From: Lentilactobacillus rapi DSM 19907 = JCM 15042
GTDB lineage: Bacteria > Bacillota > Bacilli > Lactobacillales > Lactobacillaceae
Length of the DNA: 55,931 nucleotides
Assembly: GCF_001436255.1 (NCBI RefSeq)
Contig: NZ_AZEI01000016.1
Span: 1-55,931 of the forward strand
Direction of reading: 5' to 3'
How positions within the stretch are numbered: the first letter of the stretch is position 1; each line of letters starts with the position of its first letter. Shown here piece after piece: positions 2,885 to 53,676 of the stretch. Position numbers and translations under genes: made by a program. Under the pieces are notes generated by a model. That model saw only the letters and a program-made list of their open reading frames with translations, did not search any database and had not been told where the DNA came from.

Positions 2885-3183
2885 AATCAAAGAACATTAG
2901 AGTTTGCTAAGACAAGGAGAGTAATTTCTTAGGACTTTTTTCAGGGAGAATCGGGTAAGTGAGAACGATTCAAAAGCCTAAGCAATGAAAGTAGCCTTCG
3001 AGCGACAAATGCGAACAGTATTGTGAGTATTTGTTGGGAGCGCCCATTACAGCGCCAGTGTATCGCTGAATTTGATTTGGCCGTACATGGTGAGGTAGCA
3101 GTCGTGAGGCTGTTGCGAATTTGGGTGGTAACACGTGCAAACGTCCCTTGAAGTCATATCGATTTCAAGGGACGTTTTTTTGT
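2885..3183 (+). promoter_or_regulatory. T-box leader (branched-chain amino acid class) for brnQ
   Basis: The core T-box GGGTGGTAACACG lies at 3123-3135, just ahead of a factor-independent terminator, matching the family consensus AGGGUGGNACCGCG. Upstream, Stem I features are visible: GGAGAGTA near 2916, then GGGAGA and GTGAGAACG near 2945-2970. The likely specifier is GTA (Val), in the context GAAA-GTA-G-CC-TTCGAGC near 2986-3005; this reading is tentative because Stem I was folded by eye. Uncharged tRNA would stabilise the antiterminator and allow transcription of the carrier gene. Val, Leu or Ile control is usual for brnQ genes. Confidence 0.85.
3141..3183 (+). terminator. T-box regulated terminator
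   Basis: Perfect 12-bp arms ACGTCCCTTGAA (3141-3152) and its complement (3164-3175), followed by a run of seven T. It lies directly after the T-box sequence and is the attenuator of the brnQ leader. Confidence 0.9.
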
Positions 3184-22906: not shown

Positions 22907-23818
22907 ATGAAAGCATATGGATATGTCAAACATGGGAGCCCAGACGTTTTTCAAGAATATGAAATTGACAAACCGACTCCTGCACCAGATCAAGTATTAG
23001 TGCAAACGATTGCGGTTGGTCTCAATAATCGTGAGCGTTCCGAACGGGCAACTGGTGGTAGCTTGGGATCACCATTAATTCCCGGTCGAGATGTTGTTGG
23101 TGAAGTGACAGAAATTGGCAGCCGGGTTTCTGATTTCGGTGTTGGCGAATTAGTGATGACTCACACGGAACGGGGATACGCGGAATATGTATTGGCAGAT
23201 GTTGACGCGACGGTTCACGTTCCTGGCGGAATTACCCCAACCCGAGCAGCCGGGATCATTACGCCTGGATTAACTGCCTACAAAGCTGTGAAGTATTTTG
23301 CCAATGTCCAACCTGACCAGACGGTTATCGTGAAGGGCGCTTCTGGTGGGGTTGGCTCGCTGTCTGTCCAGATTGCGACGGATTTGGGTGCCAACGTCAT
23401 CGGGATTGCGTCAAGCCACAATGAAGATTTTGTTAAATCGATTGGGGCAACCCAGTTTGTCGCCTACGATCAAAGTGATCCAGCCACTGTACTGGCTGAC
23501 CAAGGAGATGTCGTGATTAACAGCGCGATGAATGGTGCCGGCACTGATGACGATGTCAAAATGGTGAAACCCAACGGTACGATTGCCAGCGTGGCCCACA
23601 ATTCACCAATGACCGACAAACCGATCAAATTTGTGCACATTCATCCAACAAATGCCATGACTGATCGAGAAGCGTTGAAAGCAGTTGTGGATTTGATGCG
23701 GGATGGAAAATTAACCGTGAATATCGGCTATACTTTGCCATTTAATCGAGATGGCTTTGTAAAAGGTCACCAGTTGCTTGAGGAGAAGCACGATGGCCGG
23801 GTGATTATTGTTAAATGA
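22907..23818 (+). CDS. NADPH-dependent quinone oxidoreductase-like MDR protein
   Basis: A 303-residue zinc-free medium-chain dehydrogenase. It has the N-terminal GroES-like barrel (GLNNRERSERATGG, PLIPGRDVVGEV) and a Rossmann fold with VKGASGGVGSLSVQIA (near residue 143-160), the nucleotide motif of the QOR/zeta-crystallin branch. The zinc-binding Cys residues of alcohol dehydrogenases are absent. It likely reduces quinones or enals with NADPH. The ATG at 22907 follows a perfect AAGGAGG. Single gene, followed by family A copy A2. Confidence 0.88.
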   Translation: MKAYGYVKHGSPDVFQEYEIDKPTPAPDQVLVQTIAVGLNNRERSERATGGSLGSPLIPGRDVVGEVTEIGSRVSDFGVGELVMTHTERGYAEYVLADVDATVHVPGGITPTRAAGIITPGLTAYKAVKYFANVQPDQTVIVKGASGGVGSLSVQIATDLGANVIGIASSHNEDFVKSIGATQFVAYDQSDPATVLADQGDVVINSAMNGAGTDDDVKMVKPNGTIASVAHNSPMTDKPIKFVHIHPTNAMTDREALKAVVDLMRDGKLTVNIGYTLPFNRDGFVKGHQLLEEKHDGRVIIVK

Positions 23819-23825
23819 TGCTTAA

Positions 23826-24004
23826 ACTGGGACAAGAGGCGTTTTGATCCCAGAACTTAAAAAAGGACCAATTATTCCTGGCGTTGGAATAATTGGTCCT
23901 TTCCGTTAAGTGATCGGGATCAGCCGGTTGGTGCAACTTTAATCAATATAAGAGTGGCAATCACAGTCGCCATTACAAATGAAAGAAATGACTAAGGTCT
24001 CAGC
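23826..24004 (+). repeat. Family A intergenic element, copy A2
   Basis: Hairpin 1 is CTGGGA (23827) with TCCCAG. Hairpin 2 is a perfect 17-bp stem with outer bases GGACC/GGTCC, where other copies have TAACC/GGTTA or TGACC/GGTCA. The conserved block GGGATCAGCCG follows, and the element ends in AAGGTCTCAGC. It starts 8 nt after the oxidoreductase stop codon. Confidence 0.85.
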
Positions 24005-24044: not shown

Positions 24045-24161
24045 GGACAGCTCCTCCAAGCAGGAATCGGAACCTAAGCACCTGAATCATAAATCCCACA
24101 AACCGGGATTTATGATTCAGGACACTTAGGTTCCGATTCCTAACCGCTTGGATCCGCTCAC
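24045..24161. repeat. Family B 117-nt long hairpin element, copy B1
   Basis: Read on the plus strand it runs from GGACAGCTCC to ATCCGCTCAC. It folds as AGC/GCT, an internal loop, CCAAGC/GCTTGG, an AACC bulge on the 3' side, a perfect 17-bp stem beginning AGGAATCGG, an internal loop CA/ACA, a second perfect 17-bp stem beginning CCTGAATCA, and a 7-nt loop. On the minus strand it begins 5 nt after the stop codon of the ThrE-type gene. It contains no ORF and no T-run. Confidence 0.9.
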
Positions 24162-24166
24162 TTACG

Positions 24167-25519
24167 CTAATCAAAATGTCGCCACTCTCTATCCAGCAAT
24201 GCTCTCGCCACAAACAGCCCGAGTGGTAGGAACATAATAATCAAGGCAGCCTTTGTGAGCCACAATGCGCCCACGCTGATCTGGTTGATGCCGATGCTGT
24301 AAACGGCCCTGTAAATGTACAGTCCTGGCACCATGATAACGATTGACGGGACAGTGAGTGAAATCCTTGGGTAACCGTTGAATCGGTTGACGACCGATGC
24401 GATCAAGCCCGCTAACAAGGCGGCCAGGAATGCGGCGGCAGCTGGTGGTAACGTTGTTAAATCCACCAGTTCAAGCCTTAACGTATTCGCAACGGCACCA
24501 ATACAGCCAGCAACGGTTGCCATTCTGACGGTACTATTGAACATAATTGAGAAACCGAAAACCCCACAGAAACTTGCGGGCAATCTCAGTAACATTAAAA
24601 CAATTGGCGAGAGGCCGAGGGGCAAAAAGTTCTCTGGCTGAAAATGAAAAAGTAGGGCGACCAGCCAACCAACTAATGAGGCGATTAACGTGATCATAAT
24701 CGCGTATGCCAGCCTTTCCAGACCTGATCGCATATCTAACTTCGAAAGGTCTAAAATGCTTGTAATGAACGGGAAACCGGGAATAACGAATAGCATTGCG
24801 CCAATGTAGCCTGCCTCATGTTGAGCCAGAACTTGGAAATTTGCCTCAAAAAGCTTGAATGAAATCATGTACGCAATTCCAGCAATCGCCACGGCAATCG
24901 CAATGCTGGCAAAGGTTGTCATGCGATGCTTCCCCATCAGACTTTTGGTAAAGTTACCGATCCCAGCCCCGATGAACGAACAAATCATTTCGGGGATGCC
25001 ACCGCCGAGCAGAAAAATAAAGCCACTGCAGGCTAGAGCGGCTGCCAATCCGGAAATAACGGACGTATACTGAGCTGGTTTTTGCTGAATCTTATCAATT
25101 TGGTTGTGAATGGTCCGAATGGTTGTCGTTGAAAAGTCGTTGGCAAAATTGGCGACAAAGCCTTCCATGATGTTTAGTTTATCCGTATTCACGCCGGTGT
25201 TGGGGAGTGACAGAATTTGTGAGTAGCTGTCATCGTCGGCGAAACAGGTAAACTGAATTGAAGTCAGGCCGATGTCAGCTGAACAAGTTACACCCAAGAC
25301 CCGGGCAATGGTGTTCATTGCGTCACGAACACGCCACGCCCCAGTTCCACAGGACAACATGATAATGCCAACTCGGCCAACAACCGATGCCCGTTCGCGC
25401 AAAGGCGCGTTTTTGGCGGGTATTTTCTTTTGACTGATGAAAGCATTCCATGGAATGGTCATATGATGATTTTGGGATAATCGAAATTTTTTAGGTTCGT
25501 CGGGTTGGCTGTTTACCAT
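24167..25519 (-). CDS. ThrE-family threonine/serine exporter (fused two-domain)
   Basis: A 450-residue protein with an N-terminal cytosolic ThrE-1 (DUF1212) domain (IIMLSCGTGAWRVRDAMNTIA, IQFTCFADDD) and about ten membrane helices that include the ThrE-2 half; in many firmicutes the two halves are separate genes. The family exports threonine and serine using the proton gradient. The ATG at 25519 follows GGAGG (25524-25528); a longer in-frame start at 25594 has no site. The threonine biosynthesis cluster lies 5 kb away, a fitting context. Copy B1 of the long hairpin begins immediately after the stop codon. Confidence 0.88.
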   Translation of the reverse strand: MVNSQPDEPKKFRLSQNHHMTIPWNAFISQKKIPAKNAPLRERASVVGRVGIIMLSCGTGAWRVRDAMNTIARVLGVTCSADIGLTSIQFTCFADDDSYSQILSLPNTGVNTDKLNIMEGFVANFANDFSTTTIRTIHNQIDKIQQKPAQYTSVISGLAAALACSGFIFLLGGGIPEMICSFIGAGIGNFTKSLMGKHRMTTFASIAIAVAIAGIAYMISFKLFEANFQVLAQHEAGYIGAMLFVIPGFPFITSILDLSKLDMRSGLERLAYAIMITLIASLVGWLVALLFHFQPENFLPLGLSPIVLMLLRLPASFCGVFGFSIMFNSTVRMATVAGCIGAVANTLRLELVDLTTLPPAAAAFLAALLAGLIASVVNRFNGYPRISLTVPSIVIMVPGLYIYRAVYSIGINQISVGALWLTKAALIIMFLPLGLFVARALLDREWRHFD

Positions 25520-25564
25520 GAGATCCTCCAAGATGAGTCGAATTGTATTATTAGCAATATTTGC

Positions 25565-25594
25565 ATTATATCCATGACATGGGGTTGGGTTCAA
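25565..25594 (-). promoter_or_regulatory. Promoter of ThrE-type gene
   Basis: On the minus strand: TTGAAC (25594-25589), an 18-bp spacer, and TATAAT (25570-25565), about 45 bp upstream of the start codon. Confidence 0.65.
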
Positions 25595-28984: not shown

Positions 28985-29160
28985 GAGATTGGGACGAAAG
29001 GTGTTCTAATCCCAGAATTTAACGAAAATGACCAATTATTCCTGATTTTGGAATAGTTGGTCATTTTTGTTAAATGGCCGGGATCAGCCGTTTGTTGCAA
29101 ATTTTGCCAATGTAAGAATGGATAGCCGAGTGGCATTTATAAACACTTGGCCGACTAATT
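28985..29160 (+). repeat. Family A intergenic element, copy A4
   Basis: It lies between the two tandem CPBP genes, 18 nt after the first stop. Hairpin 1 is TGGGA/TCCCA; hairpin 2 is an 18-bp stem with outer TGACC/GGTCA and one G-T pair; the tail ends GCCGACTAAT. The segment 29161-29350 after it has a further structured leader: CTGACGAT (near 29263) pairs with ATTGTCAG (near 29317), and no gene. Confidence 0.85.
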
Positions 29161-29350
29161 TTCAAAAACTGCAAATTTTTTCAAATTTCGGAAAAATATT
29201 GGGATATAAAAACGTAATTAATATATATAGGGCAAAAGAAGTGAGGTGAACTCAACTGTCCTTACTGACGATCAGCCGAGAATAGCGGGGGAAAATCCCA
29301 GCTAACTCATTGTCAGAAACACATTATTCTTTCAGAAAGTAGTGATTCTA

Positions 29351-30121
29351 ATGATTATTAAAAGTCGGCGCTCATGGGTCGAACAAATTCTGGTAGCAAT
29401 TGTTTTCCTGATTGCCTACCTTGGTCAAATGTTTCTGCTTCAAGGGGTTAACAGTCTGGTCTTTGCGGCCATCCAACTAGTTTTTGGCGGCATCATCCTA
29501 TTGTTCGTGTATATTGAAGTTGGGACGTTCAAAGTAACGGTGCAGCGGCCTAAATTTACGCTCAGTTTAAAAATATGGTTGGTGATATTTGGTATGACCG
29601 TCACGGCGATGTTATTACTGGTGAGTGTGCCTTCAAATGTGATGACAATTTTAACCACTGGCCATTTAGCCCAAAACACTTTGGTTGCGCTGGCAACGGG
29701 GATTGTTGAAGAGAGCCTTACCCGCGGGCTGCTTTTATCAGCCTTCCTACAAAACCTGCGACGCCGTGACCGATCGTTGAAAATGACGAAAGCGGGAATT
29801 TATTCATCATTAGTATTTGGTTCCCTTCACATGGTGAATCTGACTTCCAGCGGTTTCGAAGGAGTTGCTCAGCAGGTTCTGTACACCTTTGTATTGGGGA
29901 TGCTATTCATGGTCATTCGGGTGACCACGAATACACTCATTTGGAATATCGGGCTCCATTTTTTGATCGATTGGCAGCCGGATATTGTTAATGCAACCTC
30001 GGAACCAACAAACTGGTTCGTGATTATTGGTGTGTTTGGGATTATCTTGGCCGCCAGTCTGATTTGCTTGATTAAGTTTGATCAAGATCTTGAACGGCAA
30101 CCAGTTTTGAATTCTAACTAA
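29351..30121 (+). CDS. CPBP-family intramembrane protease, tandem paralogue 2
   Basis: A 256-residue membrane protein, same length as paralogue 1. Motifs: VEESLTRGLLLSAFL, SLHMVNL and IGLHFLIDW. The ATG at 29351 aligns with that of paralogue 1; a GTG at 29342 is possible. All three family motifs are kept, so both copies may be active. Differences cluster in the first two and last membrane segments, hinting at divergence in substrate or partner. Family A elements stand on both sides of it (copies A4 and A5). Confidence 0.82.
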   Translation: MIIKSRRSWVEQILVAIVFLIAYLGQMFLLQGVNSLVFAAIQLVFGGIILLFVYIEVGTFKVTVQRPKFTLSLKIWLVIFGMTVTAMLLLVSVPSNVMTILTTGHLAQNTLVALATGIVEESLTRGLLLSAFLQNLRRRDRSLKMTKAGIYSSLVFGSLHMVNLTSSGFEGVAQQVLYTFVLGMLFMVIRVTTNTLIWNIGLHFLIDWQPDIVNATSEPTNWFVIIGVFGIILAASLICLIKFDQDLERQPVLNSN

Positions 30122-30307: not shown

Positions 30308-30376
30308 GATTGTTTAGCGATTTTGCTTGATTGTGAGGAACTACTGGATCCAATGATTGTGCGAAATGGTGGTTAC

Positions 30377-30502
30377 AAGGCAGGGGTCTGCCCGTAAGTA
30401 TCCCAGGATTCCGCCGTTATATAGCCTAATAGTGCTCCGCAAAGCAGCAATCTGCCCATAAGCACCTTCATCAAAAATCCCCAAACCCAGGATTTAGCTT
30501 CG
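30377..30502. repeat. Degenerate fragments of family B
   Basis: Two decayed pieces precede copy B2. The segment 30441-30502 matches the left half of B2 (AAAGCAGCAATC, then CCATAAGCACCT, then AAAAATCCCC) and stops just inside the returning arm. The segment 30377-30413 (GGCAGGGGTCTGCCCGTAAG then CCAGGATT) is a shorter, more eroded version. Together with B2 they show repeated insertion or duplication at one site. Confidence 0.65.
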
Positions 30503-30517
30503 CCGATACATAGATTA

Positions 30518-30634
30518 GGACTGCTGCACCAGGCAGAAACTGGACCATAAGCACCTCAAACAAAAATCCCCAAGCCCAGGATTTTTGCTTGAGGAGACTT
30601 ATGGTCCAGTTTCTAAGCGCCTGGCTCCGCACAC
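30518..30634. repeat. Family B 117-nt long hairpin element, copy B2
   Basis: The same architecture as B1 with different arms: outer pair TGC/GCA (AGC/GCT in B1 and B3), CCAGGC/GCCTGG, bulge AAGC, a perfect 17-bp stem beginning AGAAACTGG, internal loop CA/AGA, and a 16-bp stem with one mismatch. On the minus strand it begins 4 nt after the stop codon of the ACT-domain gene. Confidence 0.9.
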
Positions 30635-30638
30635 TGGT

Positions 30639-31073
30639 CTACTCAATCGAAACCAACTGCACATTACTAGCGCCATCAACTTTTTTGATGCCATTAAGCA
30701 AATTATCGACAGTGCCGCTAAAATGGCTTAGATCCAGCGAGATGACGATACTGGCAATATTATGGATTGGGATGTTTTGGTTAATCGTTAAGACGCTGGC
30801 GCTGGAATCTGAGATGGTTCTTAGGACCTCCGACAGAATTCCTCGCTTATTTTCCAGCATGAGCGAGATCACTGCTTTTCGGTCCATCATGTTTTCTTCC
30901 GGCAGAAACACCAGGTCTTTATATTTATAATAAGTTCCGCGACTAATGCCAACGATCTTAACCGCCTCGCTAACTTGGCGAACCTTACCGCTTTCTAGCA
31001 ATTGTCTGGCTTGAATGACCTTATCAAAGGATTCAGGGAGAATCGAACTATCAACGATGTAGTACTTTTCCAC
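30639..31073 (-). CDS. ACT-domain protein, UPF0735/PheB type
   Basis: A 144-residue protein. The N-terminal half has a helix-turn-helix-like stretch (VSEAVKIVGISRGTYYKYKD); residues 70-144 are an ACT domain (AVISLMLENKRGILSEVLRTI), which in this family binds amino acids. GTG at 31073 is chosen because GAGG is 9 nt upstream; GTG at 31079 is the alternative. The gene overlaps the 3' end of thrB by 23 bp, so it is translationally coupled. A role in sensing threonine or another aspartate-family amino acid and controlling the pathway is inferred from context; the family's function is not firmly known. Confidence 0.82.
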   Translation of the reverse strand: MEKYYIVDSSILPESFDKVIQARQLLESGKVRQVSEAVKIVGISRGTYYKYKDLVFLPEENMMDRKAVISLMLENKRGILSEVLRTISDSSASVLTINQNIPIHNIASIVISLDLSHFSGTVDNLLNGIKKVDGASNVQLVSIE

Positions 31074-31956
31074 GTTCACTTACCTCACTTGTTACGCCGG
31101 TTGAATCGACTGTTAGTTTGCGAATTTGCCAAGCTGGAAATGCAGCTTTGGCGTTCGCAACAATCTCATCGGCGGCTTGTTGGCTGGCAGTAATGGCCAT
31201 CATGGTTGAACCGCTGCCGCTGATATACATTGTACCGCCAGCTTGCTCACAAATGGCCTTGACGTCGCCATAATCTGGAATCAATTTGGCCCGGTACGGC
31301 TCGTGCATTCGATCATCGCAAGCTTCGTGGATCATGTGCATGTCACCGAGTTCCAAGGTCTTAGTCATCGCAGCACAATGGCTGACTTGGTGAATCGCAT
31401 CCGCGTAACTCATGGTCGTTGGCAACACCTTGCGGGCTTCATGGGTGCTCACCTCATAATCCGGAATCAGCGCGACAAAATGCAGCCGTTGATTGACCTG
31501 ATACTTAACGATCTGGGGCTCATCGTGCTCATCCATAAAGGAAACGCACAAGCCACCGAGAATGGCCGGGGTCACGTTGTCTGGATGGCCTTCCATCTGG
31601 GTTGCCAAGATTAACAATTGTTCCTCTGAAATGCCCCCACCATACCAGTCACTGGCTGCTTTTAGGCCGGCAACCACGCAAACGGATGAGCTGCCAAGCC
31701 CTCGAGCAACCGGAATGTCACTCTCAACGGTAATCTTAACGTTGGGGACGGTCTGATTGAGAAAAGTACAGCCCTTAACAAATGCCTGGTAAACCAGATT
31801 ATGCTCGTTTTGAAATTCTTTTGGCGAACCGCTAATTTCCAGATGCTGAGAACTCGGCTCAAAAGTAATGGTTGAGTAGTATGAAACGGCCAGGCCAAGA
31901 CAGTCGAAGCCAACGCCAACATTGGCGCTAGTTGCGGGAACTTTGATCTTGATCAT
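31051..31956 (-). CDS. thrB: Homoserine kinase
   Basis: A 301-residue GHMP kinase that phosphorylates homoserine, the step before threonine synthase. N-terminal VPATSANVGVGFDCLG and the ATP-binding PVARGLGSSSVCVVAGL (near residue 85) are diagnostic; the C-terminal block has GTMYISGSGSTMMAI. The ATG at 31956 follows GAGGAGG at 6-7 nt; an upstream in-frame start lies inside thrC. It overlaps the end of thrC by 29 bp and the ACT gene by 23 bp, so thrC, thrB and the ACT gene form one coupled unit. Confidence 0.95.
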   Translation of the reverse strand: MIKIKVPATSANVGVGFDCLGLAVSYYSTITFEPSSQHLEISGSPKEFQNEHNLVYQAFVKGCTFLNQTVPNVKITVESDIPVARGLGSSSVCVVAGLKAASDWYGGGISEEQLLILATQMEGHPDNVTPAILGGLCVSFMDEHDEPQIVKYQVNQRLHFVALIPDYEVSTHEARKVLPTTMSYADAIHQVSHCAAMTKTLELGDMHMIHEACDDRMHEPYRAKLIPDYGDVKAICEQAGGTMYISGSGSTMMAITASQQAADEIVANAKAAFPAWQIRKLTVDSTGVTSEVSERGKVLHR

Positions 31957-36293: not shown

Positions 36294-36378
36294 ATTTATG
36301 GTAAATGACCAATGAGTTATGAGGGATATAACAAGTAAGGCATTAAAACGTCTGATCAAGGGGAGGAGTTTGTTAACA

Positions 36379-39300
36379 ATGAATAAATTTTCAAAAATAC
36401 GCGAGGAAAAAGTACATTACAAAATGTACAAAGCTGGTAAGCAATGGCTGTTCGCGGGACTGGCAACAATTAGTTTGGGGCTTGGTTTAGGCTTGTCACA
36501 GGGGAATGTCAAAGCCGATACGAGTGCCGAGGTCTCAGCAACAGAAAGGACTACAGCAAGTAGCGCGGTCGGTACGTCCGACGCTGCGAAAACGCCAAGT
36601 CAGGGCGCTACTAGTCAAAGTACTGAGGGGGCTAGCACTGCGGCTGAATCTGAAGCCGTGAAGGTGGCTGAACAGAAAACTGAAACGGCCCAGGCTGATC
36701 AGGTTGATACTGCGACGCCAGAGTCGACAGCACCTGCAAACGACCAGCAATCACAAGCAAGTGCCAGCCAGTCAGTGGCCGCAAAGCCCGCAAGTGCGGC
36801 TTCTTCAGTGACGCCGCAAACAAGTAACAGCACCGCTGCCAAACCAGCTGCTGAGCAAGGGCAACCAACAGCTAGTGCAGCGCCGGTACAACCCAAAGCC
36901 GCCACAAATGAGGCTGTAGAAGAAACTCCAGAAGTTCATACGAAAGACACGGCGGCCAACGTTGCGACCGACAAAGCAGAATCAATTGCTCATGCTGATA
37001 AAAAAGTGACTGAGCAACCAGAAGCTGATTTGGATCAGACGCCAAAATCAACCAAAGATTCCGGGGTCGCAAGTCAAACCGATCAGCTTTCTGATAAGAA
37101 AGCAGCCATTAAAGATGCTGAAACACAAGCTGACCAGGATATGAACCAACTTGTGATGAAAGGGACCAGTGCCAAGCTTTCGATGAAGCTCCAATCAAAG
37201 TTGATGCCCAAAGGTGTCAGCCTCATGATGGCTAACGATGAGCCGGCAACTGTTATCAAGACTGGTTACTGGGGTTCAAGTGAGTGGAAATTCATGTCGG
37301 ATGGCACTTTGAGCATCGGTGAAGGGACCCTGTCAACAGTGAATAAGACGAACAATCCACTGAAGGATTTTGCTAAGGACATCAAGAAGATTATGATTGC
37401 CCCGAATACGAAGGCCCCAGTAGATTCTTCCTACCTATTTTCACAGCCTGACGGCAGTGGGTTACCTAACGTGACCTATATTCAAGGTGAGAACTTGAAT
37501 GTAAAAAATACCCAAAACTTTGCTCGAATGTTCCAAAATGATAAGAGTCTTAAAAGCGTTGATGTTGGCAAGTGGAATGTTAAAAATGCAGTAATGGTAG
37601 TGCATTTTCCAGATGATAACCATTTGGGAGCAATGTATCAAATGTTTGACGGTGCCAGCAGCCTACAAACACTCGACCTTAGTAGTTGGGATACTTTTGC
37701 ATTTCAGACAGCTGGCGGATTTGGCTGGCTCGCAATGCAGGATATGTTGAGAGGGACGTCAAGTCTCTGGAAAATTACCCTCGGTCCCAACACTTTTCTT
37801 GCGGCACTCAGTGATTTTGGGGGAACCGTGGTCATTCAAAATGCTCCTGGTAACAACCAAAAGATAGGCGATTCAGATGAGCCGCCATTCTATGCAAGTA
37901 TTGATCAAACGTGGCAAATGGTCGGGAACGGAACCGATCACAGTCCTGCGGGACGAAAAATAACCCCAGAAGAGATTCAAAAACAGGTGAATGACGGTCA
38001 GTTTAATCAGCCAGTTACCTTCGTTTGGAGCCAAGTTCAGCTGGAAGTTGCTAAAGTTCATTTTATCCGCTCAATAGACGGCCAAGAACTGGGGACAACG
38101 GACACAGAGCCTACCGCTAAAGGAGAGCAGTTATCCTTAGTAGCTGGTAGTAAGTTTCTTACAAAGAATATGCCTGCTGGGTATCATCTAAGCTCAAAGG
38201 ATCAGCTGCCAGCCAACGCCAAGCAGCCAACTTCATTAACGTTTGGGACAGATAAGAATGTCAATATTTATGTTACGTCTGACAAGCCGTATTTCAAGGC
38301 AGTCACCATTCGCCAAGTTGAAGTTGATCAGGATGGAAACGTAGGCAAAACGTTATCATCAAAGGATATCTTTGCCTTTGCGGGCGATACGATTACAACC
38401 AATACCAACGACCCAGAGTGGAAGGCGCCATGGGGATACGAAGTCGTTCCTCAAGACACAGCTTATACGGTGCCTAATGATGCCAGCGCTGGTACTCACA
38501 CGATTGATATTCAGTATAAGAAGCTTCAAGTGGCAACCATTACTGTCAACTATGTTAATACCAAGACGGGTAAAACCATTGGGCAAAGTAATCCAGTCGG
38601 GGACGCTTATGGGATTATTGATTTAGGCGCCAACAGCACCCATTTGGACATTCCAGCTGGGTACCACTATGCGACAACTCCAACGGAACTTGGCAGTAAC
38701 ACCCAGCCAACTACCTTGGAATTTAAGCAGGATTTGCAAACGACAAACGTATACGTTGCTCCTGATGAAATCAAGGCAGAAGACGTTGGCGCTATTACGG
38801 TTCATTATTACTTGGATAAGTCAACGACCAAGATTCAAGAAGACCGGAAAGTTGGCGGCTTCGTTGGTGATACCATTACGATTAACGCCCAAGACGCTGA
38901 ACAAACAATTGCCGGCTACACGCTTGTTCCAGGACAGGCAGCTCAGAGCTTGACATTGGATGGCAAAGCTAAAGAAGCAGTCTTTTACTATACGGCTAAC
39001 GATACCAATAACATTACAGTGAAGTATATTGATACAACGACTGGTAATGAAATTAGTTCTAATACGCCGGCTGGCCATACGGGTGAGGATCTGAATCTAG
39101 GTTCCGACAGCAAGCAGATCACAATTCCAGAAGGGTATCACTATGCAACTCAGGAAGAATTAAAAGATGATCAACAGCAGCCATCGACCTTAACCTGGAA
39201 AACGACCGATCAAGAAGCGAAGGTCTATGTCACCGGTAATGAAGTTAAAATGGGCGATGTTAATGCAATTACGGTTCATTACTATGTTGAAGCCACAACT

Positions 39301-42300
39301 GACAAGGTAAAAGAGGATGCATCAGTCGGCGGCAAGGTCGGTGATCAAGTGACAATCGATCCGGCGGCCGTGAACGGGTATCGCTTAGTTGACGGTCAGG
39401 CTGCCAAAAAGTTGACCCTGGATGCCAAAAATGGCCAAACAGTTATTTTCTACTACAAGGCCAATGAGCAAAAGAATATCACCATTGCGTATGTCGACAC
39501 CAATACCGGAAAAGAAGTTGGCACTAGCACGCCTGATGGGCATACAAATGAAAAGCTCAATTTAGGATCAGATAGTCCTCAGATCAGTGTTCCTGAAGGG
39601 TATCATTATGCCACTCCGGAAGAATTGCAAGGCAAACACGAACAACCAACTGATTTAACTTGGACGACCGATGAGCAGAAGACAACTGTTTACGTTGTTG
39701 GCAATGACGTGAAGGACACCGACGCTAACGCAGTTAAGGTTCACTACTATTTGAATCATACTGAACAATCATTGAAGCCAGATGACTCATTTGGTGGCAA
39801 GGTCGGCAGTCCAGTAACGATCACACCAGTTGATATTAAGGGATATACCGGCATTGACGGTCAGTCAGCTCAGGTTATCACCCTCGATGCCAAAAATGGG
39901 CAAACAGTTACCTTCTATTACGAGGCTAATCCGCAAAACAATATTACGGTTACCTATATTAACCAAAAGACCGGTGATAAGATTGGCGAAAGCGAGAATC
40001 CGAGCGGTCATACCGGTGAAAAGCTTGACCTTGGTGAAAAGAGTCCCCAAATCAGTGTACCGGAAGGCTACCATTATGCCACTCCAGAGGAACTGGACGG
40101 GACCCAAAAACAACCAACCGAGATGACTTGGACGACCGACGACCAGGACGCGAAAATTTTTGTGGTTGGTAATCAGGTTAATCCTGGTGACACGAATGCG
40201 ATTACTGTTCATTATTATTTGGATAAGACCACCACATCACTTCAGACAGACGGGTCAATTGGTGGCAAAGTTGGTGACTCAGTAACGGTTAATCCCGCCA
40301 CTATTGATGGTTATTCCTTGGCTGCTGGTCAGAATCCGCAGACGTTGAAGTTGGATGCGAAGAAAGGCCAAACGGTTACCTTCTATTACCAAGCTGACGA
40401 TCAAAACAACATTACGGTCAACTTAGTAGATCTAAATACTGGCAAACAGGTTGGCGATCCTCAAGTTCCAGCTGGTCATACCGGCGAAGAACTTAATTTA
40501 GGCAAAGATAGTGACAAGATCACGATTCCAGACGGCTACCATTACGCAACGCCTGATGAATTACCAGTTGGAACGACTCAGCCAGGTAACTTAACTTGGA
40601 CCACCGACAAACAGGACACTAAGGTTTATGTTATCGGGAATGAAGTTGAGAAGACAGACGCAAATGCCGTTATGGTTCATCACTACCTCGAAAGTACCAC
40701 GACAGCACTGAAAGTCGACGACCAACTTGGCGGTCGAGTTGGCGGTCAAGTAACCGCTAAGCCTGCTGAAATTGCGGGTTATACGTTAGTTGATGGTCAG
40801 ACCGAGCAAGTATTGACGTTAGATGCAAAGCAGGGTCAAACGGTTACCTTCTATTACAAAGCCGATGATCAAAACAATATTACGATCACCTATGTTGATA
40901 CCAACACCGGCAAAGAGGTTGGCACGCCACAACAACCCACTGGGCACACTGGCGAAGAGCTCAATTTAGGCAAAGACAGTGACAAGATCACGATTCCAGA
41001 CGGTTATCACTACGCAACGCCTGAAGAATTGCCAGCTGGAACCACTCAGCCGGGGAACTTAACTTGGACGCCAGATAAACAAGCCACCAAAGTGTATGTG
41101 ACCGGGAATAAAGTTGGAGAAGGCGATACCAATGCCATCACCGTTCACTATTTTGTTGAAAACACGACAAAATCACTGAAGGCTGACGACTCAATTGGTG
41201 GTACAATCGGTGTTCCTGTAACGGTTAATCCAGCTGAAATTAAGGGCTATACGCTCGTTGACGGCCAAACAGCCCAAACGATCATGCTAGATGCTAAGAA
41301 AGGCCAAACGGTTACTTTCTATTACCAAGCGGATGATCAAAACAACATCACCGTTACCCTGGTGGATCCAAAAACTGGCACCCAAGTTGGGACGCCGCAA
41401 CAGCCAGCCGGCCATACTGGCGAAGAACTCAATTTGGGCAAGGATAGCGACAAGGTCACGATTCCAGACGGTTATCACTACGCAACCCCTGAGGAATTGC
41501 CTGCCGGAACCACCCAACCAGGTAACTTGACTTGGACGACAGACGAACAAGCCACTAAGGTTTATGTCATCGGCAATGAAGTTAAAGAAACCGATGAAAA
41601 TGCGGTTACAGTTCATCACTACCTTGAAAATACAACAACATCGTTGAAGACCGATGATAAAATTGGTGGTCGGGTTGGCGTTGAAGTAACGGCTTCACCA
41701 GCACAAATCAATGGTTACACCTTGGTTGATGGCCAGACGGCACAAACATTGACATTAGATGCCAAGAAGGGTCAAACAGTTACCTTCTATTACAAGGCTG
41801 ATCCTCAAAACAACATCACCGTTACCCTGGTAGATCCAAATACTGGTAAACCGGTTGGTGATCCGCAACAACCAGCTGGCCATACTGGTGAAGAACTTGA
41901 CTTGGGTCAGGACAGTGACAAGATCACCATCCCGGATGGCTACCATTACGCCACTCCTGACGAGTTGCCGACAGGGACGACGCAACCAGGCAACTTAACT
42001 TGGACGCCAGATAAACAAGATACCAAGGTTTACGTTGTTGGCAATGAAGTGAAGGAGACCGATGAAAATGCGGTTACCGTTCATCACTACCTTGAAAGTA
42101 CCACGACATCATTGAAAGCCGATGACAAGCTCGGTGGCCGCGTTGGCGGTGAAGTTACTGCCAAACCTGCCGAAATCGCTGGTTACACTTTGGTTGATGG
42201 TCAAACGGCCCAGGTATTGACATTAGATGCCAAGAAAGGTCAAACGGTTACCTTCTACTACAAAGCGGATGGTCAGAACAACATCACGATCACCTATGTT

Positions 42301-45300
42301 GATACCAACTCCAACAAAGAAGTTGGAACTAGCACACCAGCTGGTCATACTGGCGAAGAACTCAATTTAGGCAAAGATAGCGACAAGATTACAATTCCTG
42401 AAGGTTATCACTACGCAACGCCGGAAGAGTTGCCTGCAGGGATGGAACAACCCAAAAATACAACGTGGACGACCACGGAACAGGCAACGAAAGTATACGT
42501 TACGGGAAATAAAGTTCAAGATAAAGACGCCAACGCCATTACGGTTCACTATTTTGTTGAAAACACGACAACATCATTGAAGGCTGACGATTCAATTGGT
42601 GGGACTATTGGGGTTCCTGTAACCGTCACCCCAGTTGAAATCAAGGGCTATACACTGGCTGATGGCCAAGCAGCTCAAACAATCATGCTAGACGTGAAGA
42701 AGGGCCAAACGGTTACTTTCTACTATCAAGCTGATGATCAAAAGAATATCACCATCACTTACGTTGACACGGATACTGGTAACCCAATTGGTACCAGCGT
42801 TCCAACTGGTCATACCGATGAAAAGCTTGATCTTGGTTCAGACAGTCCGCAAATCAGTGTGCCGGAAGGTTATCACTATGCTACTCCGGAAGAACTAATA
42901 GAGACACAAAAGCAACCAACTGAAATGACTTGGACGACCGACAATCAAACTGCCAAAATTTATGTTGTGGGTAATACGATTGATAAGAGTGATAAAAACG
43001 CGGTTACGGTTCATCATTATTTGACAAATACGACAACCCAGTTGAAGGCTGATGAAGCGTTTGGCGGCAAAGTTGGCGGTCAAATTACGGTTAATCCGGC
43101 AGAAATTAACGGCTACACATTAGTTGACGGCCAAGCTGCCAAGACCTTAACGTTTGACGTCAAAGAGGGCCAAACGGTCACGTTCTATTATCAAGCCGAC
43201 GATCAAAACAACATTACGGTTAGCTTGATAGATCCAAATACTAACAAACCGGTTGGTGAACCACAACAACCAGCTGGGCACACTGGTGAAGAACTCAATT
43301 TGGGCAAGGATAGTGACAAGATCACCATTCCAGAAGGCTATCACTACGCAACTCCTGATGAATTGCCAGCTGGAACGACCCAACCAGGCAACTTGACATG
43401 GACGACCGACAAGCAAGATACCAAGGTTTACGTTGTCGGTAATGAAGTGGGGAAGACGGATGCAAATGCCGTTACAGTTCATCACTATCTTGAAAATACG
43501 ACGACGTCATTGAAAGTTGATGACCAGCTTGGTGGTCGAGTTGGCGGTGAAGTAACTGCCTCACCCGCTCAAATCAGCGGCTACACCTTGGTTGATGGCC
43601 AAACGGCACAGACATTGACATTGGATGCCAAGAAGGGTCAGACGGTTATCTTCTATTACCAAGCGGATGATCAAAACAACATCACCGTTACCCTGGTTGA
43701 TTCAAATACTGGTGATCAGGTTGGTAACCCGCAACAACCAGCCGGCCATACGGGTGAAGAGCTTAACTTGGGTAAGGATAGTGATCAGATCACGATTCCG
43801 GAAGGCTACCATTACGCTACCCCTGATGAATTACCAATCGGAACGACGCAACCCGGTAACTTAACTTGGACTACGAATAAACAAGATACGAAAGTTTATG
43901 TTGTTGGTAACGAAGTGAAGGAGACGGACGAAAATGCCGTTAAGGTTCATCACTACCTCGAAGGGACAACAACATCATTGAAAGCTGATGATGCACTTGG
44001 TGGCCGAGTTGGCGGTAAAGTAACGGCTTCACCAGCCCAAATCGACGGGTACACCTTAGTTGATGGTCAAGTAGCTCAGGAATTAACGTTGGACGCGAAG
44101 AAGGGCCAAACGGTTACCTTCTATTACCAAGCAGATGATCAAAATAACATCACTGTTAACCTCGTTGATCCAAATACGAACAAACCGGTTGGCGAGCCGC
44201 AACAACCGGCTGGTCACACTGGCGAAGAGCTTAATTTAGGCAAGGATAGCGATCAGATCATGATTCCAGAAGGCTACCATTACGCAACGCCTGAGGAATT
44301 GCCAACAGGAACGACCCAACCAGGTAACTTGACTTGGACCACAGATAAACAAGATACGAAAGTTTATGTTGTTGGCAATGAAGTGAAGGAAACCGATGCA
44401 AATGCCGTCACAGTTCATCACTACCTGGAAAATACGACAACATCATTGAAATCAGATGACAAACTTGGCGGCCGAGTTGGCGGTGAAGTAACTGCCAAGC
44501 CTGCCGAAATTGCTGGTTACCGATTAGTTGATGGTCAGACGGATCAAGTGCTGACATTAGACGCTAAGAAAGGCCAAACAGTTACTTTCTATTACAAGGC
44601 TGATGGTCAAAGTAACATTACGATCACTTACGTTGACACCAACACTAACAAGGAAGTTGGTACCAGCACACCAGCTGGTCATACTGGCGAAGAACTCAAT
44701 TTGGGCAAAGATAGTGACAAGATCACGATCCCAGAGGGCTACCATTATGCAACGCCTAATGAGTTACCAGCTGGAACGACCCAACCAGGCAACTTGACTT
44801 GGACGACTGACAAACAAGATACGAAAGTTTATGTTGTTGGAAATGAAGTGAAGGAAACCGATGCAAATGCGGTCACCGTTCACCACTACCTTGAAAATAC
44901 AACAACCTCATTGAAAGTTGACGATGCACTTGGCGGTCGAGTTGGCGGTGAAGTAACCGCTAAGCCTGCCGAAATTGCTGGTTATACGCTACTTGATGGC
45001 CAAACCGCCCAAGTATTGACATTAGATGCCAAGAAGGGTCAAACAGTTACCTTCTACTACAAAGCCGATAATCAAAATAACATCACGGTTAGTCTGGTGG
45101 ATCTAAACACGGGCAAGCAAGTTGGTGAGCCACAACAACCAGCAGGCCATACCGGCGAAGAACTCAACTTAGGTAAGGATAGTGACAAGATCACCATTCC
45201 GGAAGGGTATCATTACGCCACCCCTGATGAGTTACCAACTGGTACGACACAACCAGGTAACTTAACTTGGACTACTGACAAACAGGACACTAAAGTTTAT

Positions 45301-48300
45301 GTTGTTGGGAATGAAGTCAAAGAAACCGATGCAAATGCCGTGACGGTTCATCACTACCTTGAAAGTACCACGACATCATTGAAGTCAGATGATAAGATCG
45401 GTGGCCGCGTTGGTGGTGTAGTCACCGCTAAGCCCGCTGAAATCGCTGGTTACACGTTGGTTGATGGTCAAACGGCTCAGGTATTGACATTAGATGCCAA
45501 ACAGGGCCAAACGGTTACCTTCTATTACAAAGCGGATGGTCAAAACAATATCACGATCACTTACGTTGACACTCATACCAACAAGGAAGTTGGTACCAGC
45601 ACACCAGCTGGCCACACTGGTGAAGAGCTTGATTTAGGTTCTAACAGCCAGCAAACCAACATTCCAGAAGGTTACCATTACGCAACCCCTGATGAATTAC
45701 CAGCTGGAACCAAGCAGCCAGGAAACTTGACTTGGACCACGGATAAGCAGGACACTAAAGTTTATGTTGTTGGAAATGAAGTTAAGGGAACCGATGCAAA
45801 TGCGGTCACAGTTCATCATTACCTTGAAGGCACAACGACATCGTTGAAAGCTGATGAAGGAATTGGTGGTCGAGTTGGTGGTGAAGTCACCGCCAAACCC
45901 GCTGAAATTGCTGGTTACACGTTAGTCGATGGTCAAACTGCCCAAGTATTAACATTGGATGCGAAGAAGGGCCAAACAGTTACCTTCTACTACAAGGCCG
46001 ATGGTCAAAATAACATTACCGTGACCTTCGTAGATCCAAAGACTGGCAAGCAGATTGGTGATCCGCAGCAACCAGCTGGTCACACCGGCGAAGAGCTTAA
46101 TTTAGGTAAGGATAGTGACAAGATCACCATTCCTGAAGGTTATCATTACGCAACGCCAGCAGAATTGCCTGCAGGAACCACCCAACCAGGTAATCTCACT
46201 TGGACAACCGAGGGTCAGGACACCAAAGTTTACGTTATTGGTAATGAAGTTAAAGAAACGGATGAAAATGCGGTAACGGTTCATTATTACTTGGTAAATA
46301 CCACTCAATCACTTAAAGACGATGGCTTGATTGGTGGGATAGTTGGCAACTCAGTGACAGCTGCGCCAGTAGATATCAATGGTTACACCTTGGTACCTGG
46401 TCAAAAAGCCCAAACTTTAACGCTGAAAGCAAAGGGCGGTCAGACCGTTACCTTCTACTATCAAGCTGATGGCCAAAACAACATCACGGTAACCTATACA
46501 GATGCAAACACGGGTAATGTGGTGGGCACAAGTACCCCGGCCGGCCACACTGATGAAAAGCTTAATCTAGGTTCTGATAGTAAGCAGATTGATGTTCCAG
46601 CAGGTTACCACTATGCAACCCCAGAAGAGTTAAAAGATGGTCAGAAGCAACCAGGTGATTTAACTTGGACAACCACTGATCAGCAAACTCAAGTCTACGT
46701 GGTTGGTAATGATGTGAATGCTGGTGACAAGAACGCAGTGACAGTTCACTACTATTTAGAACACACAACGAAGGCTCTCAAAGACGACGATTCCCTTGGT
46801 GGCAAAGTCGGCAGCCCGGTTGTTGCTAACCCAGCTCAAATTGATGGGTATACGTTAGTTGATGGCCAACCTGCCCAAACCCTGACATTGAAAGTTGATG
46901 AAGGCCAGACGGTCACCTTCTACTACAAAGCTGATGAACAGAAGAACATTACGATTACCTACAAGGATCCGACAACCGGAAATCCAATTGGCGATAAGCA
47001 AAATCCAACTGGTCACACTGGAGAAGAACTTGATTTAGGTAGGGATAATGACCAACTCGATATCCCCGAAGGTTATCACTATGCAACACCGGAAGAATTA
47101 CCTAAAGGCGTTAAACAACCAGGGAACTTGACTTGGACCACTAAAGATCAAGATACTGAAGTCTATGTGATTGGTAATCCGGTCCAACCGGGTGATCCAA
47201 ACGCAGTGACGGTTCATTACTACGCTGAAGATACAACCAAATCTCTGAAGGACGATGCGTCAGTTGGCGTTGTGGTTGGCAGTCCAGTGACAATTGCCCC
47301 AGCAGAGATCAAGGGCTATACGCTGGTAGGTGACCAAACTGCCAAGACATTGATTCTTGATGCCAAGGACGGGCACACGGTTACCTTCTACTACAAAGCC
47401 GATGCTCAAGATAACATTACGGTTACCTATGTGGATATCAACACCGATAAAGAAGTTGGTAAAGATACTCCAAGTGGCCATACTGACGAGCAGCTTGATT
47501 TAGGCTCCGACAGTAAGCAAGTTGTTATCCCAGCGGGTTATCATTATGCAACTCCGGATGAATTGAAGGACGGTCAACAGCAGCCTAAGGATTTAACTTG
47601 GACGACTGATGATCAGAGTGCCAAGATCTACGTTGTTGGTAATACTGTTGGAGAGACGGACGAGAATGCCGTTACGGTTCACCATTATTTGGAAGGAACC
47701 ACCCAAGTGCTTAAAGAGGATGATTTCTATGGCGGTAAGGTTGGTGATTCAATAACAGCCGGTCCAGCTGAAATTGAAGGTTATACACCAGTTGACGGCC
47801 AGCAGGCTCGGACAGTGACACTGCGGGCAAAAGATGGTCATGAGTTAACCTTCTACTATCAAGCAGACGAGCAAAAGAATATTACGATCACGTATATTGA
47901 TCCAAATACTGATGAGGTGATTGGCAGCCCTGATACGCCAACTGGGCACACTGGCGAGGAACTGAACCTCGGTCCTGATAGTCACCAAATCGATGTTCCT
48001 GATGGTTATCACGTTGCAACACCTGAAGAATTGAAAGATGGTCAAAAACAACCTGACAATTTGACTTGGACAACCGAAGATCAGGATACTCACGTGTACG
48101 TTGTTGGAGACAAGGTTAATCCAGGGGATGCCAATGCCATAACGGTTCATTACTATGAAAAAGGCACAACTAATCCTGTGAAGCCAGACAGCCAAATTGG
48201 TGGCGTTGTCGGTCAAACAATCACTGTTGACCCAGCTAAGGAAACAGTTCCTGGTTACACATTGGTACCTGGTCAAGAAGCCCAAGACTGGCAATTGGTT

Positions 48301-52521: not shown

Positions 52522-52534
52522 GTCGGATTTGAAA

Positions 52535-52651
52535 GTGAGCGTATCAAAGCGGTTAGAAACTGTCGTATAAGTCTCCTTGGTCAGAAATTCCCAGGTTTGG
52601 AATTTTTGACCGAGGTGCTTATGTGGAAGTTTCTGCTTTGTATAGCTGTCC
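52535..52651. repeat. Family B 117-nt long hairpin element, copy B3
   Basis: It is in the opposite window orientation to B1 and B2. Read on the minus strand it begins GGACAGCTAT and ends CGCTCAC. It has AGC/GCT, CAAAGC/GCTTTG, the AACC bulge, a stem beginning AGAAACT with a mismatched middle, the internal loop CA/AGA, and a final stem with two mismatches. It lies between the T-box terminator (15 nt before it) and the ribosome site of the panE-like gene (about 12 nt after it), so it is in the leader of every full-length transcript. Confidence 0.9.
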
Positions 52652-52677: not shown

Positions 52678-53676
52678 ATGAAGTACGGCATTATTGGTGC
52701 AGGCGCAATGGGAGTAAGGTATGGTGTCATGTTACAGGAAAACGCCAATGTTGACGTTGACTTCATCGAGACCTGGGAACCAAACATCAACCAGATTCGT
52801 GAACAAGGCGGCGTTTCAGTTGCTCGTGATCACCAAAACCGGCGAATCGTTCCCATCAACATTTATCGACCAGAAGAATATCAGGGTCATCCAGATGTCT
52901 GGATTGTCTTTAAGAAGCAAATGCAGTTAGCTGATGAACTAGATCGTGATCGTGCTGCTGGGATCTTCCATGATGATCAATATGTCTTTTCTGCAATGAA
53001 CGGCATGGGCCACTTTGAAAAGATTGCGAACTACTTCCCGAAGGATCATATTATTTGCGGCACAGCGATGATTGCAACCCGAATGGATGGACCCGCAGAC
53101 ATTGATTTCATGGGAGCTGAAGGTGACGAGGTCATGCACATGGCCCGCTACACCAACGAAAAGCCGGATCAGACGACCCAAGCGGTCTTCGATGATTTTA
53201 CCAAGGCCAAGTTAGGACCAGTGTTCGCGGATGAATGGAAAGGTATGTGCATGTCCAAGGTCGTCTTCAACGCCGTTACCAACACATTATGTACGATGTT
53301 TGAAATGCAGATGGGTCAATTCATTGAGTACCCTGGCGTGCGGGAAATGTCGCGGCAATTATTTGATGAAGCTTATGATGCGTGTGAGCGGGCCGGCATT
53401 TATCTAATCCCCACCCGCCAAGAGCAGGTCGATTCCGTGATTACCGTCAGCAAAGAATACAAGTACCACTATCCATCAATGTACCAAGACTTTTCCAAGG
53501 GGCGGCCAACGGAAGTTGATTATATCAACGGTTATATTGCCAAAATCGGCCGGGAGCATAACTATGTGTGCCGCACCCACGAGTTTGTGGTTCACGAAGT
53601 TCACATGGCGGAAATGATGAGAAAGTATCATCAACCGCAAACCAACGATACTGATAAGGAGCGTGTCCACGCATGA
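52678..53676 (+). CDS. Ketopantoate reductase-family protein (PanE/ApbA-like)
   Basis: A 332-residue oxidoreductase. The N-terminal YGIIGAGAMGVRYG is the NADPH motif GxGAxG. KVVFNAVTNTLCTMF (near residue 197) has the catalytic Lys, and PSMYQDFSKGRPTEVDYINGYI the substrate-binding block of the family. Members reduce ketopantoate to pantoate for coenzyme A or reduce branched-chain 2-keto acids to hydroxy acids. Control by an apparent Ile T-box favours the second role. The ATG at 52678 follows AAGGAG; a longer in-frame reading from 52444 runs through the T-box and the B3 hairpin and is rejected. The stop overlaps the start of a 55-codon ORF (ATGA). Confidence 0.88.
   Translation: MKYGIIGAGAMGVRYGVMLQENANVDVDFIETWEPNINQIREQGGVSVARDHQNRRIVPINIYRPEEYQGHPDVWIVFKKQMQLADELDRDRAAGIFHDDQYVFSAMNGMGHFEKIANYFPKDHIICGTAMIATRMDGPADIDFMGAEGDEVMHMARYTNEKPDQTTQAVFDDFTKAKLGPVFADEWKGMCMSKVVFNAVTNTLCTMFEMQMGQFIEYPGVREMSRQLFDEAYDACERAGIYLIPTRQEQVDSVITVSKEYKYHYPSMYQDFSKGRPTEVDYINGYIAKIGREHNYVCRTHEFVVHEVHMAEMMRKYHQPQTNDTDKERVHA

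Follow-up and report, generated by a model that had tools for sequence, protein, structure and literature searches.

A high-copy 117-nt hairpin repeat of Lentilactobacillus with near-constant loops and stems exchanged as paired arms

The locus and its three hairpin copies

The window, that is, the whole stretch of 55,931 nucleotides analysed, comes from Lentilactobacillus rapi DSM 19907 = JCM 15042 (contig NZ_AZEI01000016.1). It contains three copies of a hairpin-forming element, and both their exact length of 117 nt and their positions are as an initial annotation of the sequence had given them. The copies, their neighbouring genes and the parts of the fold in copy 3 are listed below, with column numbers referring to A3, the alignment of 86 copies from the same genome.

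22907-23818, plus strand: zinc-type alcohol dehydrogenase gene, neighbour of copy 1
24045-24161, minus strand: copy 1, 117 nt, reading GTGAGCGG...CTGTCC on the minus strand
24167-25594, minus strand: ThrE-type exporter gene, the other neighbour of copy 1 and convergent with the first
29342-30121, plus strand: Rce1-like gene, neighbour of copy 2
30432-30517, minus strand: putative decayed right-half relative of the element with a GTGCTCC-type end, adjoining copy 2, recognised by reading the sequence and without a full-length model match
30518-30634, minus strand: copy 2, reading GTGTGCGG...CAGTCC on the minus strand
30639-31079, minus strand: open reading frame with a below-cut-off ACT match, the other neighbour of copy 2
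52528-52534, plus strand: A-ending leader TTTGAAA to the left of copy 3, mostly missing from empty sites, its boundary putative
52535-52651, plus strand: copy 3, reading GTGAGCGT...CTGTCC on the plus strand
52544-52550, plus strand: 5' arm of the outer stem of copy 3, partner 52635-52641 (A3 columns 10-16 with 104-110)
52551-52554, plus strand: one-sided bulge GGTT of copy 3 (A3 columns 17-21)
52555-52561, plus strand: 5' arm of the middle stem of copy 3, partner 52628-52634 (A3 columns 22-28 with 97-103)
52576-52591, plus strand: 5' arm of the inner stem of copy 3, partner 52599-52614 (A3 columns 43-58 with 68-83)
52678-53676, plus strand: ApbA/PanE-type gene, with copy 3 immediately upstream of its Shine-Dalgarno sequence

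The three copies align without gaps at a mean column identity of 85%. Copy 3 is oriented opposite to copies 1 and 2, a point on which the initial annotation needs correction, and its orientation relative to the gene is the rarer one of the 117-nt family. The arm sequences differ and still pair, as had been described, with AGC/GCT or TGC/GCA at the base and CCAAGC, CCAGGC or CAAAGC with their complements in the outer stems; the unpaired parts, namely an AACC or AAGC bulge (GGTT or GCTT on the other strand) and an asymmetric inner loop, are indeed nearly constant. The earlier statement that the copies fold identically holds for the overall shape, which is one long rod in all three, but not base by base, and copy 3 is interrupted on its weaker strand. 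Folding energies of the GTG(A/T)GCG...GTCC strand are -77.1, -73.0 and -52.1 kcal/mol for copies 1, 2 and 3, respectively, and the complementary strand folds less well in every case (-69.7, -61.1 and -38.3 kcal/mol). The orthologue of copy 1 in genome G011 has a second tandem copy.

Half-elements containing only the right half (GGTGCTTA...GGAGCACxTTTCC) were also seen, arranged head to tail with a period of about 60 nt, at about 1490-1780 of locus L022 (contig C66 of the L. rapi genome, G000) and at about 30375-30517 of the window. They are joined by a CTATATAG-like palindrome, and their right end is of the GCAC type, not GTCC.

Secondary structure and covariation

The outermost parts of the element are unpaired GTG and GTCC, a 3-bp base AGC/GCT and an open stretch of 3 nt by 3 nt. 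Further inward there is a 7-bp outer stem, the one-sided GGTT bulge, a 7-bp middle stem and a 3 x 3 loop. Another stem and the asymmetric inner loop come next, and the inner stem is capped by a short end loop. The 3 x 3 loop consists of GGA facing GCA, GGA or GTA in 263 of 321 copies.

In the alignment of 86 copies from the L. rapi genome, from which a covariance model was built, 97.8% of 3523 cells are paired, and 500 shuffles give 82.9% (sd 0.4). Sliding the partners by one to three columns, a control that keeps the relatedness of the copies as the shuffles do not, leaves only 37.5-48.5% of the cells paired. Both sides have changed at 28 of the 41 pairs, and the covariation score is 0.478 versus 0.186. 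The non-Watson-Crick cells on the GTGAGC...GTCC strand are GU in 924 cases and AC in 221, or 432 and 214 once three family-wide GU-rich pairs are removed. Taken pair by pair, GU exceeds AC at 29 of 41 positions and AC exceeds GU at nine, most clearly in columns 56/70 (19 GU, 42 AC). Such an excess on one strand suggests that selection probably acts on the folded GTGAGC...GTCC strand, in the form of RNA or of single-stranded DNA; the asymmetry could also arise from strand-biased mutation.

The elements could also be mutational by-products: template switching would re-pair the two arms of each long palindrome, gene conversion would homogenise the copies, and selection would not act on the fold. 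The 3 x 3 loop is fully paired in nine of 321 copies, including copies 1 and 2 of the window, where the open GGA/GCA loop has been converted to perfect pairing as such a process would do. Middle stems with at most four of their seven pairs formed are found in six of 321 copies, which shows that unmatched recombinants do arise, as this explanation would also have it, but rarely, which it would not. Arm correction should moreover close the loop as often as the stems, and 312 of 321 copies have a loop that is at least partly open, so that arm correction is rejected as the sole cause; nor is an excess of GU over AC expected from a double-stranded DNA process without strand bias. We regard this explanation as improbable. 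Gene conversion between arms, which the initial annotation had named as the process that might account for the arm changes, is a real effect but a minor one.

Exchange of stem segments between copies

Linkage between stem modules was expressed as normalised mutual information over 321 distinct full-length copies. These remained from 407 after restriction to full-length copies (329), removal of repeated stretches and of copies with less than 30 nt of flank (325), and removal of two copies with N (323, with 321 distinct rows). The loci L079-L173 were fetched by an exact conserved-core pattern, among the matches listed, with a bias to typical copies, and the linkage and flank counts rest largely on such pattern-fetched loci (222 of 325 copies).

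The two arms of a module are linked at 0.56 in the outer, 0.70 in the middle, 0.59 in the upper, 0.39 in the inner and 0.22 in the tip stem, and neighbouring modules on the same arm at no more than 0.28. The inner value is weak because most inner modules (80% and 72%) fall into a pooled class of rare types; a narrower inner module gives 0.57 in the L. rapi genome and 0.53 in other species. When the two sets are taken separately, paired arms of the outer, middle, upper and inner stems score 0.57-0.74 in L. rapi against 0.20-0.43 for same-arm neighbours, and paired arms in other species score 0.49-0.65 against 0.14-0.24. Linkage is thus tighter across the fold, between segments separated by a long distance in the DNA, than between segments only a few bases from each other. 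The L. rapi genome has 79 combinations of outer, middle and inner types among 100 distinct copies. Stem segments therefore reassort between copies as paired arms, with the bulges staying much alike. The initial annotation had seen in arms covarying around fixed loops what a selected RNA or a folded single-stranded DNA would show; the covariation and the near-constant loops stand, but much of the covariation comes from the exchange of whole paired segments between copies.

Copy number and distribution

A blastn search of the L. rapi genome (2.85 Mb in 87 contigs) returned at least 78 matches, with the best 40 of 119 candidates scored. The covariance-model search that had been suggested with the first description of the three copies reveals a far larger family: the weakest of 150 scored matches still reaches 94.5 bits and all are full length, so that the true number of full-length copies in this genome is at least 150.

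Absence from related genomes would have spoken against the element, and it is instead found in 20 of 60 related genomes (L. rapi included) and in 5 of 31 genera, in a survey that scored the best matches, up to 61 per genome. Sixteen of the 24 Lentilactobacillus genomes, again counting L. rapi, are positive by the covariance model, and four other genera of the family have 2-12 copies per positive genome. No match to the covariance model (R1) was found in 23 genomes from other families of the same order. The named records that contain the exact core pattern are, among the matches listed, all but one from Lentilactobacillus. Genomes of this genus with copies measure 2.0-3.3 Mb and those without 1.2-2.3 Mb.

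Seven of 72,556 plasmid records contain the element, six from Lactiplantibacillus plantarum and one from Lentilactobacillus parabuchneri. In the two plasmid copies inspected (L174 and L175) the neighbour is a LacI-type or substrate-binding-domain gene. In L174 and L175, which come from L. parabuchneri and L. plantarum plasmids, one base of the copy falls within the annotated end of the neighbouring LacI-type gene, and the element thus appears to contribute one base of the stop codon. At the blastn sensitivity used, none of 50,697 phage records matches the element, which speaks against a phage origin.

Arrays, flanks and gene placement

The 325 unique full-length copies form 170 tandem, one-way arrays of one to six copies with a period of about 125 nt, some of which are orthologous across species and hence non-independent. 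Mixed strands occur in one of 49 clusters of the L. rapi genome. The 155 spacers are 4-10 nt long, mostly 7 or 8; every one begins with T (TA in 149) and ends with A. Spacer pairs within an array are identical in 19% of 99 cases, against 2.5% of random pairs, and the end of a spacer shares a mean of 3.0 bases with the left flank of its own array, against 1.9 with the flanks of other arrays. Flanks were counted where they do not meet another element, which leaves 161 left flanks, 130 right flanks and 122 arrays with both, out of 170. The base preceding GTG is A in all 161 left flanks, and GTCC is followed by T in 95% and then by A in 85% of the 130 right flanks. In the 122 arrays with both flanks, the left and right sides share matches of 2-9 bases no more often than randomly paired flanks do, and target duplication was thus not detected.

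Several of these features recall the attC sites of integrons, which recombine as single strands. A recombinase would then cut out units of leader plus hairpin in circular form and insert them again next to TA. The head-to-tail arrays with unit order and number changing at one site, the near-constant bulges around free stem sequence, the strand bias, the spacers starting with TA and ending with A, the additional A-rich bases that flank the insert on one side in several cases and the lack of a detected target duplication would all suit such a system. We nevertheless consider it very improbable, as the attC core triplets are absent from the base of the hairpin, the "cassettes" carry no genes, and the exchange of stem segments inside copies suggests ordinary recombination.

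A Shine-Dalgarno-like sequence and a start codon, directed away from the element, are present in 80 of 161 left flanks and in 4 of 130 right flanks, and the Shine-Dalgarno motif in the wrong sense, taken as a control, in 10 and 3 of them, respectively. Because of this bias to the left end, most arrays in 5' leaders put the less well folding strand into the mRNA. In the 141 of 170 arrays with enough flank, the element meets the start of the left neighbour gene in 95 and its end in 42; since these gene distances include open reading frames that run into the element, the Shine-Dalgarno count is the sole firm evidence on orientation. The 18 genes scanned downstream of arrays in the L. rapi genome, of which three gave no Pfam match, are transporter and enzyme genes unrelated to one another, and a common function of the downstream genes is ruled out for this set.

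The one-way placement, with its low wrong-sense controls, is what would be expected if the copies were host regulatory elements, 5'-leader hairpins upstream of Shine-Dalgarno sequences that set mRNA stability or translation, are kept for that role and are varied by recombination. The array sites are also retained in G011, and some in G004, G006 and G014 too, while the copies in them change. However, the mRNA bears the weaker-folding strand and the strand on which GU is favoured is antisense to the gene, the neighbouring genes have no function in common, some of these sites are empty in other species, and the remaining half of the left flanks lack such a start site. That the copies are host regulatory elements therefore appears doubtful to us.

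Empty sites and turnover between species

Several genomes, including G008, G009, G021 and G022, lack copy 3 at the orthologous place, and G005 retains a remnant of its right end. Altogether 11 filled arrays, corresponding to seven distinct sites, have an empty counterpart. At several of them the filled site has 117 nt plus about 4-9 extra bases on the left, and at several the GTCC is joined to a TA that occurs once in the empty site. As these comparisons cross species, with flanks 75-95% identical, the exact junctions are uncertain and some of the events may be losses. The TTTGAAA leader of copy 3 probably belongs to the inserted unit, to judge from the aligned sites. With the leader counted as belonging to the unit, a TA duplication would fit some of the empty and filled pairs; other pairs do not fit it, copy 3 in L. 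rapi and in G006 lacks a TA on the left, and two sites give no clear reading.

A closer comparison is possible with G011, which is about 94% identical to the L. rapi genome over most long matches. It covers 17 common sites, in about 80 kb of genome and the window, and with partial copies included in the counts the copy number is equal at nine and different at eight (e.g. 7 vs 2, 3 vs 1 and 3 vs 0). At the 12 copy positions that can be compared, identity averages 79% (range 70-99%) and is 80% or less at nine of them; the flanks are 81-100% identical and random pairs of copies from L. rapi 71%. In a five-copy array common to both species the first two units are in swapped order. In another shared array, an outer stem of rare sequence has been kept and the middle and inner stems differ together. 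At one shared position the copies of both species have an unmatched middle stem, which fits the remnant expected of a one-sided exchange. Copy 3 is shortened to 42 nt in G011 and to about 60 nt in G014, which fits an internal deletion and would suit elements that are mutational by-products.

Search for a mobilizing enzyme and a longer element

Gene families that could mobilize the element were searched for in the 24 Lentilactobacillus genomes, in assemblies of 2-120 contigs (two in G006, 20-120 in the others), from which such a gene may have been lost or left unassembled. The Y1 transposase of the RAYT/TnpA-REP type (PF01797) occurs in 7 of the 24 and in none of the element-rich G003, G004, G006 and G014; the comparison with REP/RAYT hairpins proposed at the outset accordingly gave no fit. 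DDE_3, the IS630-type domain, has no match above the cut-off in any of the 24 and one below it in G019. Reverse transcriptase (PF00078) is present in eight, among them the element-free G002, G007 and G017, and in none of the element-rich G004, G006 and G014. Mobilisation by RAYT/IS200 or IS630-type enzymes and by reverse transcription is ruled against by these absences from element-rich genomes.

Of 347 matches in the loci L051-L181, 298 are full length. Nine clear matches contain only the left end and 12 only the right end, and no pair of them frames a stretch of 0.1-6 kb, which argues against a longer autonomous element with the same ends. A regular expression aimed at short versions with the same ends retrieved 89 elements, all of 114-122 nt, although inspection of the sequence does show shorter relatives that have other features.

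Relation to known repeat families

In a search of the whole window against Rfam 15, the sole match at the gathering score is a T-box at 2900-3151. With E values up to 10, all matches to the region of copy 1 stay below gathering; there are 12, of which 10 are to miRNA-precursor models, and a known RNA family was rejected on this basis. The remark in the initial annotation that no described family matches is borne out both in Rfam 15 and in the open-licence literature, where we found no description of the 117-nt family. It looks undescribed.

In integrons, the core sites R'' and R' (GTTRRRY and RYYYAAC) of attC frame the hairpin. The folded single strand, the fixed bulges, the free stem sequence and the arrays are similar here; the conserved columns of A3 give a base of GTG-AGC and GCT-GTCC, with no core triplets, and there are no cassette genes. 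The EFAR elements of Enterococcus faecalis are palindromic mosaic mini-elements whose length varies by assembly of modules. Compared by description only, they resemble the present family as mosaic palindromes in a related member of the order; in 23 genomes from other families of that order, model R1 finds nothing. ERIC, Correia and RUP elements are MITEs that duplicate TA. RUP has been linked to IS630-Spn1 in the part of the BOX study that was available (PMC3049150). All three are, like the 117-nt element, imperfect palindromes of about 100-130 nt, and TA follows the right end here as well; the differences are the lack of a detectable duplication in 122 flank pairs and of DDE_3 above the cut-off in 24 genomes, and the variable terminal stems. 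The general features of MITEs are nonetheless present, as the element is short, strongly base-paired, found in many copies and too short for a transposase gene.

According to the available portions of the same study, the BOX elements of Streptococcus pneumoniae are modular, hairpin-forming intergenic repeats with more than 100 copies per genome (125 in the strain studied) that are considered parasitic; they have terminal inverted repeats, target duplications and a repeated internal boxB, and are slightly over-represented between divergent genes (PMC3049150). Their modular hairpins, copy numbers above 100 and tandem modules in variable number are much like what is seen here. In architecture, on which this comparison rests, the 117-nt family differs from BOX as there described in that whole hairpins are in tandem, paired arms are exchanged, target duplication is not detected and the placement relative to Shine-Dalgarno sequences is strongly one-way. 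REP and REPIN sequences, which are associated with the Y1 transposase RAYT, are described in the portions available as high-copy intergenic hairpins possibly recognised as folded single strands (PMC3116915, PMC2817692, PMC8266576, PMC3733652), with REP defined as a palindrome of 20-40 nt with a GTAG or CGTC tag at one end (PMC3733652). The present element is likewise an intergenic high-copy hairpin, but compared with REP so defined it is 117 nt long rather than 20-40, ends in GTGAGC and GTCC, has free stem sequence and forms one-way tandem arrays. For lactobacilli, the accessible part of a survey of stem-loop families assigns to Lactobacillus johnsonii one family, Lac-1, inside coding regions (PMC2267715), and the part available of a review of prokaryotic MITEs does not mention lactobacilli (PMC10969869).

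Proposed origin and recognition of the element

We consider it rather probable that Lentilactobacillus has in these copies an undescribed family of small interspersed hairpin repeats, non-autonomous and dependent on their structure, that is similar in kind to BOX and RUP. The high copy number, patchy distribution, plasmid copies, unrelated neighbours and empty sites fit a non-autonomous mobile repeat, from which mobility of the element may be inferred. The near-constant loops, the free stems and the strand bias suggest that its shape on one strand matters, most simply through recognition by a protein during mobility. The inserted unit would consist of the short A-ending leader and the 117 nt, and would go in beside T(A) in A-rich DNA. 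The candidate enzyme would recognise the folded GTGAGC...GTCC strand, as single-stranded DNA or RNA, and copies with a broken hairpin would therefore cease to spread. After insertion, recombination or gene conversion among the many copies would keep swapping stem segments, and the recombinants that persist would mostly be those with both arms matched; any influence on the adjacent gene would be a side effect.

Against a mobile repeat stand the absence of a mobilizing enzyme among the Y1, DDE_3 and reverse transcriptase families, the filled and empty comparisons that cross species, the lack of a target duplication signal, the weak linkage of the tip stem (0.22) and the nine of 41 pairs at which AC is the more frequent. 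The one-way placement by Shine-Dalgarno sequences also exceeds what a random parasite would need, which leaves room for a host function. A bolder version, which we hold to be doubtful, is that this is mobile DNA recognised purely by the shape of the folded strand: a recombinase would act through the fixed bulges of the GTGAGC...GTCC hairpin, join its right end to TA, and build and edit cassette-like arrays upstream of ribosome-binding sites. With the sequence free and the shape fixed, the stems would then evolve by paired-arm exchange.

Small hairpin repeats are common in bacteria, and how they spread and why the fold is retained are mostly open questions. Here one genus offers a natural experiment, with hundreds of copies, near-fixed loops, free stems, paired-arm exchange, arrays rebuilt between close relatives and empty sites for comparison, and the family permits direct testing of a folded single strand as the substrate of mobility. 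The placement of arrays by ribosome-binding sites is relevant to gene expression in food and silage bacteria, and the array variation could be used for strain typing.

Other features of the window

A second repeat family, probably the Family A of the initial annotation, is present at 23820-23945 and 28990-29100 as a near-perfect hairpin ACCAATTATTCC...GGAATAATTGGT framed by GATCCCAG...GGGATCAGCC. It has many copies elsewhere in the L. rapi genome at about 82-85% identity, and at one of its sites G011 has a different, terminator-like hairpin instead. An open reading frame of 4276 aa at 36319-49149 contains a repeat of 465-468 nt (155-156 aa) in about 20 copies, and its product is perhaps a large surface protein. 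The T-box leader at 2900-3151 scores 101.7 bits in Rfam 15.
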